A stretch of 52,793 nucleotides of DNA, taken from IMG/VR virus record IMGVR_UViG_3300032294_002470, positions 1-52,793 of that record, one strand, 5' to 3'. The DNA comes from a virus. Under the pieces are notes generated by a model. The model worked only from the letters and a program-made list of their open reading frames with translations. It made no database searches and had not been told where the DNA came from. Below are positions 18,520 to 52,784 of this stretch, piece after piece (within the stretch, counting starts at the first letter, position 1; every line of letters starts with the position of its first letter). Both the position numbers and the translations under genes were made by a program.

Positions 18520-18597
18520 TGGTAGGTGCACCAGGATTTGAACCTGGATCTTTTTTACTTAACGTAAAATTGCTCTAACCGCTTGAGCTATACACCT
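18520..18597 (-). tRNA. tRNA with ambiguous anticodon
   Basis: Acceptor AGGTGTA/TGCACCT, a canonical D arm, T arm CCAGG/CCTGG and encoded CCA are all present. The anticodon hairpin is TTTTAC-GTTAA-GTAAAA. With a 5 bp stem and 7-nt loop (CGTTAAG) the anticodon is TTA, which would read UAA. Shifting by one base gives GTT (Asn). Neither register has U at position 33. An Asn tRNA with a lost base is the simplest explanation. Confidence 0.7.
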
Positions 18598-18598
18598 A

Positions 18599-18707
18599 TG
18601 GTGATTAGAGCCGGACTCGAACCGGATACCGTGCAGGACGGAATAGACAACCTTACCTCTTTCGAGTTGGGGACTTGGAAACCATCCCGCATTACGTCCA
18701 TCTAATC
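18599..18707 (-). ncRNA. Oversized class II tRNA-like element (109 nt)
   Basis: Acceptor GATTAGA/TCTAATC, T arm CCGG-TTCGAGT-CCGG and encoded CCA are canonical. CCGT/ACGG could be a variable arm. CAAC/GTTG would be an anticodon stem with a 14-nt loop starting TCGAAAG (CGA would be Ser). The D loop is about 21 nt. It is far longer than a normal tRNA. Confidence 0.55.
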
Positions 18708-18741
18708 AATGATCTAAGACTAGTTACAAAAATGGTCACGG

Positions 18742-18822: not shown

Positions 18823-18924
18823 CTGACTAAAAAGGATTTGAACCTTAATCCTGAGCTCCAGTTAACCGTTTGCTAAAGCAACTGCCATTACTCCGTTCCT
18901 CTGTGCACCATTACACCATAATCA
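18823..18924 (-). ncRNA. Oversized tRNA-like element (102 nt)
   Basis: Acceptor TGATTAT/TTAGTCA (last pair weak), a GTGTAATGGTGCAC D arm and T arm AAGG-TTCAAAT-CCTT are present. The anticodon region is enlarged: CAGTT/AACTG encloses a 16-nt loop containing TTTAGCAAA. No anticodon can be assigned. Confidence 0.5.
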
Positions 18925-18974
18925 ATCGGATGCTTCGAATCATCCAGTCTTAGGGTAATTAATCCCAAGATTTG

Positions 18975-19145: not shown

Positions 19146-19829
19146 TTATTTAGTAGACTCAATCCGTTTCCTAAGATTGTCAATTGAAATTCCATCATTT
19201 TTGAATCTAGAGTCTGACCCTACTACTATTATTAATGATAAATCATTTTCAGCTACTGCTGACTTCATTTTTTTTCTCATTTGGTTAGTTACCCAACCTT
19301 TATATTCAACGTATGCATTTAATTCCTTCACGTAAAAATCAGGATAAAACGTTCGTATTCTCCCTTCATCTTTATATTTGAAGCCTCTATTATTTCTATT
19401 CCACGTAACATTTAACTCATCAAATAGATTCGCAATTAATATTTCTTCAGAGTTTAAAAACATTTTTTCATTACTTGATGAAATATATTCATAAACTTTA
19501 CTTTTACCGCCTCCTTCTCTTAATCCGCCTGATCCCTTTTTTCTAAGTTCTCCACTTTTTGGCTTAATTCCAGTTAAACACTTTGATCTATATAATTTTC
19601 GGCAATCAATTGATTCACATACTTTCGTTCTAGTGATTCTACTAGTAAATTCGATACCGCAAATTACACAATCTTTAGTTTTCGAATGCTTAGTTAACGA
19701 TTTCGAAACTTTTTCAGATATTTCAGATCGTTTAGCTTTAGTACTAAACGATCTGCTACATTTCACAGAACAAAATCTACTGCTACCATATTCTCCAGTA
19801 TGCGAATTTTGGCAAGTTTCACAAATCAT
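19146..19829 (-). CDS. Putative PD-(D/E)XK homing endonuclease with zinc ribbons, 227 aa
   Basis: The N terminus has Cys pairs (CETC, FCSVKC) and a second set (CVICG, KVCESIDC), which are small zinc fingers used for DNA binding. The C-terminal half has TFYPDFYVKELNAYVEYKG, a PD...ExK nuclease core. It is more A/T-rich than neighbours and sits inside the tRNA cluster, both typical of free-standing homing endonucleases. The frame and length look intact. Confidence 0.75.
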   Translation of the reverse strand: MICETCQNSHTGEYGSSRFCSVKCSRSFSTKAKRSEISEKVSKSLTKHSKTKDCVICGIEFTSRITRTKVCESIDCRKLYRSKCLTGIKPKSGELRKKGSGGLREGGGKSKVYEYISSSNEKMFLNSEEILIANLFDELNVTWNRNNRGFKYKDEGRIRTFYPDFYVKELNAYVEYKGWVTNQMRKKMKSAVAENDLSLIIVVGSDSRFKNDGISIDNLRKRIESTK

Positions 19830-50360: not shown

Positions 50361-50447
50361 ATTATAGGTCTTGAATTTTTAGTAATGATAGCGGCCCAGA
50401 GTATAGCCTGACTATTTTATATTTATTTAGAGTCACTAAGTTTTTAT

Positions 50448-51249: not shown

Positions 51250-51597
51250 TTAATTCTTTACCACCTTAAATAGGGCTTTCTCGATGGAGTAGCCGTTATT
51301 AATGAAGTATTTTAAACTATCCACATTACAGTGAGCATAGATCATTTTATCCGAGTCTTTTATTTTAGAGTCTCGATAGTTCCAGAGCAGTTTGTATATG
51401 CCCTTTTGTCGATGTTCTTCTTTAACATAGGCATGGCACAGATAGATTACGGCAGGATGTTCCAAGTATGACACAATACCTACCAGTTCGTCTTTAATAA
51501 AACAGCCATAGTAGGTCGCGTATTCATCCAACAGGTCGGGTTTAATCTCAGCTAATTCTTTGTGAACCTCTCCGTATGTTATTTTCTTTATTTCCAT
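51250..51597 (-). CDS. GNAT N-acetyltransferase, 115 aa
   Basis: VIYLCHAYVKEEHRQKGIYK contains the R-x-x-G/A acetyl-CoA loop and the preceding strand; VDSLKYFINNGYSIEKA is the usual C-terminal N-x-x-x-x-Y-x-x-x-G segment. The first motif is short. The substrate is unknown. It lies at the edge of the tRNA-Leu-like repeat region. Confidence 0.72.
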   Translation of the reverse strand: MEIKKITYGEVHKELAEIKPDLLDEYATYYGCFIKDELVGIVSYLEHPAVIYLCHAYVKEEHRQKGIYKLLWNYRDSKIKDSDKMIYAHCNVDSLKYFINNGYSIEKALFKVVKN

Positions 51598-51615: not shown

Positions 51616-51724
51616 GAGTCAGGACAGGATTCGAACCTATGCGTAGTTTTCAAATTAGGCGTTCATCTCTTTTACATCAAAGCTTGGAGACGGCTTACTT
51701 GGTAGTACCATTTACCACCTGACT
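51616..51724 (-). ncRNA. tRNA-Leu-like element D (109 nt)
   Basis: Acceptor AGTCAGG/CCTGACT and T-loop GGTTCGAATCC are present; the D arm and anticodon arm are not recognisable. The 3' end is shared with elements A-C. Confidence 0.5.
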
Positions 51725-51732
51725 ATTTTTTA

Positions 51733-51924
51733 TTACTCTTTTTTTATTCCACTCAAAGTTAGAAGTTCATCTTTATCCAAATGATTATAACATTCTACAA
51801 CATTTTCTAAAGTGTAGAGATGTTTACCCGTTTCTTTAAAGAACTTATCTTCTAATGTGTTTTGTTGATGCCATGTAAGATTATCCCACTAAGCCTCAAT
51901 TTTATTTTCTATTTCTGTAGCCAT
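51733..51924 (-). pseudogene. Small ORF with in-frame TAG, 63 codons
   Basis: The frame starts MATEIENKIEA, meets TAG at 51889-51891, then continues WDNLTWHQQNTLEDK... to a final TAA. Both halves look like one helical protein. The second half has no Met near its start. Either a nonsense mutation or stop-codon readthrough explains it. Confidence 0.5.
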
Positions 51925-51934
51925 ATTTATATTT

Positions 51935-52003
51935 TTAGTAGTCAGGACAGGAATCGAACCTGTAAATAGTTAGTAATTCTTGTGCTGTTGGTAATTTTTC
52001 CAT
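51935..52003 (-). pseudogene. Fusion of an ORF start to a tRNA 3' half
   Basis: MEKLPTAQELLTI is a plausible gene start, but the frame then runs through tRNA T-arm sequence and stops after 22 codons. It marks a deletion between this gene and a tRNA-like repeat. Confidence 0.5.
51939..51966 (-). repeat. tRNA-Leu-like 3' half (element C)
   Basis: Only the T arm (ACAGG-TTCGATT-CCTGT) and 3' acceptor strand CCTGACT remain. The matching sequence occurs in elements A and B and nearly in D. Confidence 0.6.
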
Positions 52004-52004
52004 C

Positions 52005-52187
52005 TTATTTCTTTTTACATTTACAATCTGGATTATGTATTCCCCACGTAGCTCTTTCTTTGTTAAACTCTATATACTGATGCCCTCTAAATTCAAATTC
52101 AATAAGCTCTGCACCGTTAACAACAACTGGTTCTTTAACTTCAGTACATGATGCAAGAACAAGTAAAATTACTATTAATTTTTTCAT
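52005..52187 (-). CDS. Small lipoprotein, 60 aa
   Basis: MKKLIVILLVLASCTE is a short signal with lipobox LASC (Cys14). The mature part ends NPDCKCKKK. It probably sits in a cell membrane; function unknown. Confidence 0.7.
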   Translation of the reverse strand: MKKLIVILLVLASCTEVKEPVVVNGAELIEFEFRGHQYIEFNKERATWGIHNPDCKCKKK

Positions 52188-52198
52188 CTTTATAGTTT

Positions 52199-52303
52199 TT
52201 ATTTCTTTTTACCAAGACGTTTATCAAGTTCTTCTATTTCTTCTTGAGGCATTGCCCAAGCAAATCCAATTGCAATTACACTAAACATAATCAATACTTC
52301 CAT
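52199..52303 (-). CDS. Possible single-TM small protein, 34 aa
   Basis: MEVLIMFSVIAIGFAWAMP is one TM segment, followed by a charged tail (QEEIEELDKRLGKKK). It is short but has membrane-protein character and lies in a gap otherwise empty. Confidence 0.45.
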   Translation of the reverse strand: MEVLIMFSVIAIGFAWAMPQEEIEELDKRLGKKK

Positions 52304-52320
52304 AATTTAATTTTAATTAG

Positions 52321-52447
52321 TAGTCAGGACAGGATTCGAACCTGTATTTAATCTGTTTCGTTAGTGCTTTTGCAGAATAACTATTCTGATTAATCCCCAC
52401 CTTTCGGCTGTTATTTGGGTAGCGTCTACCAATTCCGCCACCTGACT
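52321..52447 (-). ncRNA. tRNA-Leu-like element B (127 nt)
   Basis: Acceptor AGTCAGG/CCTGACT, D arm TGGCGGAATTGGTAGACGC and T arm ACAGG/CCTGT are canonical for Leu. The central 75 nt are enlarged: CTACC/GGTGG would have a 16-nt loop and a CAGAAT-AGTT-ATTCTG hairpin follows. No anticodon can be assigned. Confidence 0.55.
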
Positions 52448-52451
52448 ATAT

Positions 52452-52649
52452 TTAATAATCACCACTTTGTTTCAAAACAATAATACCGTTTGAAATTTCT
52501 TTTTCGGTAATTGAAAGTTCTTCGTCTGGTAAACCCATATCATATAAAGATTGTCCGATTATATCCTCAGCGTTTTCTAAATTATCAGAAACCACTATTA
52601 CACAACTACCTATGTAGTGTCCTTTACCTTCGTGAATGTAGATTTTCAT
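52452..52649 (-). CDS. Hypothetical protein, 65 aa
   Basis: A small acidic protein (MKIYIHEGKGHYIGSC...) with VVSDNLENAEDIIGQ. It resembles short uncharacterised phage proteins. It sits between tRNA-Leu-like elements A and B. Confidence 0.62.
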   Translation of the reverse strand: MKIYIHEGKGHYIGSCVIVVSDNLENAEDIIGQSLYDMGLPDEELSITEKEISNGIIVLKQSGDY

Positions 52650-52672
52650 AACTTTTAATTTTTAATTTTAAG

Positions 52673-52767
52673 TAGTCAGGACAGGAATCGAACCTGTAAT
52701 ACCAACCAGTAACTCCTTTGGTCATCGTTGGACTTACGTATAGCGTCTACCGTTTCGCCACCTGACT
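52673..52767 (-). ncRNA. tRNA-Leu-like element A (95 nt)
   Basis: Acceptor AGTCAGG/CCTGACT, D arm TGGCGAAACGGTAGACGC and T arm ACAGG-TTCGATT-CCTGT are canonical for Leu. The 45 nt in between show ATAC/GTAT and CCAAC/GTTGG pairing but no normal anticodon arm. Size is near that of a real tRNA-Leu. Confidence 0.55.
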
Positions 52768-52775
52768 ATAGAGGC

Positions 52776-52784
52776 TAATATACC
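52776..52784 (-). promoter_or_regulatory. Early-type promoter box
   Basis: GGTATATTA on the minus strand, 8 nt upstream of tRNA-Leu-like element A. Confidence 0.5.

Follow-up and report, generated by a model that had tools for sequence, protein, structure and literature searches.

A proposed phage-borne family of noncoding RNAs with a tRNA-Leu-like shell and exchangeable cores

The window, which is the whole stretch of DNA analysed here, is a complete IMG/VR record of 52,793 bases and comes from a T4-like phage, as identified by its RNA ligase and topoisomerase II subunits. ARAGORN placed 20 tRNA genes at 15.8–20.5 kb, one at 23.8 kb, and made one spurious call at 52672. A 25-nt motif, ACAGGTTCGAWTCCTGTCCTGACTA, was found in four copies with 0–2 mismatches on the minus strand, at 51616, 51939, 52321 and 52673, and in no copy in 100 shuffles, which confirmed the claim of an earlier, sequence-only reading that these four places share a 3' acceptor and T arm. 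The features of the region are as follows.

52768–52783, minus strand: promoter-like GTATATTAGCCTCTAT, immediately ahead of element 1; putative promoter
52673–52767, minus strand: shell element 1, tRNA-Leu-like, 95 nt including A73, core GTAAGTCCAACGATGACC to GGAGTTACTGGTTGG
52452–52649, minus strand: small ORF of 65 aa, between elements 1 and 2
52321–52447, minus strand: shell element 2, tRNA-Leu-like, 127 nt including A73, core beginning ACCCAAATAACAGCCGAAAGGTGGGG
52199–52303, minus strand: small ORF of 34 aa, between element 2 and the 51939 3' half
52005–52187, minus strand: small ORF of 60 aa, between element 2 and the 51939 3' half; reads as lipoprotein-like from its N-terminus
51935–52003, minus strand: ORF of 22 aa (MEKLPTAQELLTIYRFDSCPDY), running into the 51939 3' half; the gene is probably truncated
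51939–51963, minus strand: lone 3' half with T arm, 3' acceptor strand and A73, with no 5' half; probably left over from an element that recombined
51616–51724, minus strand: shell element 3, 109 nt including the discriminator, which is C and not A; D arm diverged
51250–51597, minus strand: GNAT acetyltransferase gene of 115 aa (PF00583, 29 bits), adjoining element 3

The 5' half is present in three of the four repeats, with the AGTCAGG acceptor strand beginning at 52767, 52447 and 51724. The D arm is of the Leu type and good in the first two and weaker in the third; the earlier count of two is corrected to three copies with a 5' half. The fusion of an ORF directly to a tRNA 3' half, also claimed before, was found at 51939, where the half is joined to the 22-aa ORF. 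The constant shell consists of the acceptor AGTCAGG/CCTGACT, a Leu-type D arm, a T arm and A73-C74. The Rfam tRNA model (RF00005) scored 52321–52447 at 38.4 bits and 52673–52767 at 37.0 bits, with alignments that skip 71 and 40 nt, respectively, at the position of the anticodon arm. The acceptor stem, D arm, T arm and discriminator of a tRNA-Leu were all found in the shell elements, and the anticodon arm (5-bp stem, 7-nt loop) was absent, by the covariance model in the window and by regular expression in 302 elements. An ordinary tRNA-Leu fold had been named beforehand as an observation that would count against the idea of a cassette system or hot spot; the model recovered the shell of such a fold but not its anticodon arm. 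The ARAGORN call of a tRNA-Asp(gtc) at 52672–52767 was rejected as spurious, since its GTC sits inside a conserved core shared by six other viral contigs. The tmRNA model RF00023 had no match in the window.

Several other features of the window were observed. On the minus strand at 51733–51924 lies a 64-codon open frame with one internal TAG at codon 11, which may be either a pseudogene or a case of stop readthrough, and a lone acceptor-like fragment at 50404–50422 (minus strand, AAAATAGTCAGGCTA) is perhaps the 5' remnant of another element. The tRNA cluster contains, all on the minus strand, a tRNA with anticodon TTA at 18520–18597 (ochre-suppressor-like, with G replacing U at loop position 33), an uncalled tRNA-like stretch at 18831–18940 with the T arm TAAGGTTCAAATCCTTT, and an endonuclease-like gene at 19146–19829 with matches to HNH and Holliday-resolvase PHROGs, perhaps a homing endonuclease.

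The shell is widespread in viral contigs. Scans with the 22-nt 3' half and with the 5' half returned at least 120 and at least 119 stretches, respectively, and the matches listed in these scans, together with scans by both window cores, gave 253 loci. Among the matches listed, a 5' half was found for 174 of 182 relaxed 3'-half matches, and up to 7 copies of the 3' half occurred within 5 kb (L015). Base 74 was C in 171 and base 73 was A in 159 of these 174 elements; the 167 distinct elements from the same listed matches fell into 144 core clusters. A cloverleaf regular expression applied to the 253 loci yielded 570 distinct elements after merging of duplicates, of which 268 have a canonical anticodon arm and 302 lack one. 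The acceptor [AG]GT[CT]AGG was carried by 265 of the 302 non-canonical elements and by 14 of the 268 canonical ones, the remaining 37 of 302 also setting a bound on false calls by the expression. In place of the anticodon arm stands a core of roughly 20–130 nt, and the 302 elements, from loci drawn from the matches listed, formed 227 core clusters, of which 184 were singletons; each of the eight elements at locus L247 has a different core. Compared with the canonical tRNAs of the same loci, the shell elements were enriched in A15 (0.91 against 0.51), U48 (0.85 against 0.49), A73 (0.92 against 0.65) and the Leu-type D arm (0.83 against 0.09), and C74 was kept in 0.98 of them. The dominance of the shell is partly a matter of ascertainment, because the shell sequence itself retrieved most loci; the two window-core patterns and the samples of sites A and B described below were blind to it.

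Among the same 174 elements from the matches listed, 171 lay outside long ORFs. The nearest upstream ORF was on the same strand for 138 and on the opposite strand for 15, and the nearest downstream ORF for 104 and 38, respectively. Wherever a locus held at least two elements, all were on one strand (58 of 58 loci). The exact 3' half was present in 6 bacterial contigs of the genome collection (4 titled Bacteroidota MAGs, 1 Neisseriaceae and 1 Helicobacteraceae) and, when one mismatch was allowed, in a single genome among 299 from the family of G041, a rarity that ruled out copies of a host tRNA. Among INPHARED phages there was no match to the window stretch or to two single elements, and no full-length exact match to a 30-nt 3' half among the matches listed. 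The repeats are regarded as members of a large, virus-borne class of noncoding RNAs that is apparently undescribed: no account of it was found in the literature searched, which was mostly without subscription papers and bioRxiv, so that an earlier description is possible. What appears to be new is the modular, exchanged behaviour of an RNA cassette, tRNA mimicry as such being already known. As variants, L030, L076 and L115 carry extra sequence in the D loop, instead of or besides the anticodon position, and in L074, L138, L141 and L143 a recurring spacer hairpin of the type GACAGCTCGGAAAGACGAGCAACAT lies immediately ahead of some elements.

Six other viral contigs contain the core of element 1, and 13 contain a nearly identical copy of the element-2 core; both good window cores reappear in other viruses with unrelated flanks. 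In the element-2 family (8 members) 99.3% of cells pair, and two-sided changes were seen in 6 of 34 pairs, a figure equalled in 0 of 500 shuffles and with slid controls at 0. These changes include those of locus L141, which carries the element-2 core within an acceptor re-paired to ACCAAAG/CTTTGGT. Other families also have core helices with two-sided changes, for instance a helix of the L016/L050/L240 family in which 3 of 6 pairs are affected. Nested folding of the cores was barely better than that of the flanks (mean z of −0.63 against −0.35). An initial test for pseudoknots on 122 cores gave 22% at ≤0.05 for interleaved helices against 10% for nested ones, but in a stricter test on 126 cores, with the helix next to the T stem as anchor, crossing helices reached 4% and the end helix itself 15%, and a pseudoknot layout for all cores was dropped; in the L012/L066 family the interleaved helices stay fully paired. 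No core examined matched a known Rfam family. Several cores are conserved, structured RNAs. Near an element of the window-52321 family, a freshwater-1 RNA (RF02979) was noted at 2630–2691 of L148.

Cores and flanks vary independently. Among 124 same-core pairs with usable flanks, neither flank was in common in 109, one in 9 and both in 6; conversely, unrelated cores occur in loci whose flanks are about 90–96% identical. Two sites were sampled without reference to the element. Site A was fetched through its downstream protein (best 80 of 175): 50 of the 80 loci were empty with a continuous junction and 30 were occupied (23 single, 6 double and 1 triple), with 12 types of first core and a median flank identity of 0.92. 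On the flank tree, 11 changes between occupied and empty were inferred, against a mean of 24.4 and a minimum of 19 in 200 shuffles, and in the double arrays slot 2 was constant and slot 1 variable. The eight occupied junctions that were read have one common left junction, with the box TATATTTG 4 bases ahead of the element, which makes a single insertion followed by swapping the simplest reading. For 5 of the 19 distinct site-A element sequences the same core was found elsewhere; in one of these five, the partner L197 is the same contig as L273 and the other partner, L247, is separate.

Site B was fetched through its upstream protein (best 80 of 180, 76 usable). Shells with a canonical T arm were present in 9 of the 76 loci, with four cores, and one further locus, L388, has a diverged shell. 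Nine loci have the acceptor but no T arm, and the four of these that were read (L365, L366, L405 and L409) show AGTCAGG/CCTGACT at the same promoter position. The remaining loci mostly run straight into the next gene, and more distant ones carry other sequence there. A TAnnTTTG box, which we take to be the Bacteroidota −7 promoter element, lay within 25 nt of 20 of 173 elements, against about 2 expected from background; the exact four-base spacing was seen in 13 elements and counts as two events, because all 13 come from sites A and B.

At the window site, L132/L135, L133 and L134 are the nearest relatives as judged from the neighbouring 183-aa gene. The comparison of relatives for gain or loss of units, proposed with the original observation, bore it out: in L132, the nearest phage with the same gene order, there are two elements whose cores differ from those of the window, and different ORFs separate these elements from the common gene. 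The GTATATTAGCCTCTAT sequence before element 1 matches GTATAATAGACTCTAT before the first element of L132. L132 and L135 are probably one virus in two assemblies, distinguished by a 9-nt indel within the first element, and in L133 and L134 no element was seen, the contigs stopping close to this point. Gain and loss of units thus hold at the window site too, in a small sample. Both the structure and the mobility of the elements are well supported: they are RNA cassettes subject to gain and swapping. The suggestion of a cassette system or recombination hot spot was upheld insofar as an orthologous site can be empty or hold one, two or three elements, with different cores, but the unit exchanged at sites A and B is the RNA and not the ORF.

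Among the alternatives, the shell could be a palindromic substrate for a recombinase, in the manner of attC or a tRNA-type attachment site, with the RNA fold incidental. Integron attC cassettes do resemble the elements in their conserved, imperfectly palindromic (inverted-repeat) ends around a variable middle, their one-orientation arrays and their gain and loss, and empty sites and swapping would also fit. This reading is nevertheless unlikely. The search for a linked tyrosine recombinase, suggested along with the idea of classical integration at a tRNA 3' end, found none linked to the elements: the window record lacks Phage_integrase (PF00589), which occurs in 2 of the 23 records searched, in one of them as a broken frame, and rve (PF00665) was found in 0 of 21. 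Moreover, unlike integron cassettes, the elements exchange an RNA core at sites A and B, not an ORF, and show selection on RNA structure; conserved cores, A15, U48, A73 and C74 would be unnecessary for a DNA site. Classical integration was accordingly not borne out. A second alternative is decay, with the elements as functionless leftovers of tRNA-Leu genes in which the anticodon arm has disappeared or been overwritten. It would suit the degenerate look of the 51939 half and of the weak 51616 element, and phage tRNA arrays easily shed genes. Pseudo-tRNAs are very improbable, though, given conserved cores across viruses with unrelated flanks, helices that change with compensation, the retention of A73 (0.92) and C74 (0.98) and the fact that sites A and B hold elements although they are not in tRNA arrays. 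Least probable of all is that the elements are tRNA-Leu genes split by a small intron or insert, whose removal would leave an ordinary decoding tRNA. tRNA-Leu is a classical site of group I introns, and the tmRNA of L014 has a group I intron adjacent to it; against this, no anticodon stem halves were seen beside the cores, no intron family (RF00028 included) matched the window or any element in the scanned loci, and L015 and L053 also hold ordinary tRNA-Leu genes. The phage-encoded tmRNA genes (L084, 5724–6218; L014, 7609–8193, with the adjoining intron) are separate from the elements.

Y RNAs of the YrlA type, tRNA-mimicking partners of the Ro60/TROVE protein, form a further, improbable alternative. 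Y RNAs and YrlA are tied to the Ro60 operon, and a TROVE protein is encoded in 5 of 40 element-carrying virus records, the contig of L132 among them (genes in L258, L259, L260, L261 and record G037). The window record and 35 of the 40 records lack TROVE, and of the four TROVE loci read only L261 has shell elements nearby, on the opposite strand; the 227 unrelated core clusters are also unlike the binding stem of one protein. A better candidate is another tRNA-like RNA, beside TROVE in L258. Its homologue in the window, uncalled at 18600–18710 on the minus strand, has the acceptor GATTAGA..TCTAATC, a T arm and an unusual D arm, and the L258 copy, right behind the Ro60/TROVE gene, reads GATTAGG..CCTAATC with a compensated pair; given this position, the window RNA may be the phage's Y RNA. 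The L258 TROVE protein is matched in 86 of 50,697 INPHARED records, by a method other than that behind 5 of 40, so that the rates are not directly comparable.

The closest known relatives are YrlA Y RNAs and T4 species 1 RNA. YrlA is likewise a noncoding RNA whose tRNA-like domain has no decoding anticodon (PMC7790460), and differs in that the elements show no systematic link to Ro60. Species 1 RNA (rnaC) is a stable phage RNA beside tRNA genes, with a 3' T-arm-like hairpin and no evident anticodon arm; unlike the elements it is single-copy, and no clear 7-bp acceptor was found in it. A BLAST comparison of the T4 stretch with the window matched only tRNA genes, not the elements. To our knowledge, neither an interchangeable core set nor site swapping is known for Y RNAs, and we know of no interchangeable cores in species 1 RNA. 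Class II tRNA-Leu shares the Leu-type D arm, A15-U48, A73, acceptor and T arm with the elements, whose middle is filled by unrelated cores and not by an anticodon arm. Theta ribozymes of gut phage tRNAs (PMC10879173) are also small phage RNAs associated with tRNA genes, but they self-cleave beside normal tRNAs, whereas the elements are a tRNA shell around a core; the elements were not taken to be theta ribozymes because of this different arrangement.

The best explanation, to which a probability of roughly 0.6 is assigned, is that of a phage-borne RNA family with a tRNA-Leu-like shell and swappable cores, with a putative role as a tRNA-mimic decoy or adaptor. Exchange would likely use the constant shell halves, either for ordinary homologous recombination or for annealing, and this would also keep the shell sequence uniform. 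The RNA would be transcribed with neighbouring genes or from a promoter directly ahead, and would be matured like a tRNA, presumably with CCA addition and EF-Tu binding. It could be leucylated by bacterial LeuRS, because this enzyme reads A73, A15-U48, G18G19 and A20a and not the anticodon, and these features are present by sequence in most shell elements (A20a from the consensus only). The A1-U72 pair of the shell is unlike E. coli tRNA-Leu. At odds with leucylation are the site B variant without a T arm and some elements with non-Leu D arms; leucylation is therefore not general. E. coli tRNA-Leu variants without the anticodon arm and the long variable arm are still chargeable (PMC9976931).

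The core would be the working part, which is the least secure step of the proposal. The presence and absence of elements and the swapping of cores would suit an accessory factor under changing selection, and our best guess for the role is that of a decoy or adaptor mimicking tRNA, directed at RNA-targeting defences of the host or at control of the host translation machinery. For the tRNA-like domain of one Y RNA, competitive inhibition of a tRNA nuclease has been suggested (PMC7790460), and nucleases that cut tRNA tails exist (PMC12851939); tail cleavage by Cas12a3 as the target is only an idea.

It is possible, and suggested here only tentatively, that the elements form a transferable RNA-cassette system in which a leucylatable shell delivers interchangeable RNA effector cores, swapped like anti-defence genes and serving as RNA-only factors of counter-defence or host takeover. 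If so, phages would hold a common pool of hundreds of small RNAs on one tRNA-like carrier, exchanged without proteins, as an RNA counterpart of swappable accessory-gene loci. This would add many new RNA structures, probably with targets in the host, and would account for the odd 'pseudo-tRNA' and undetermined-anticodon calls in viral contigs.
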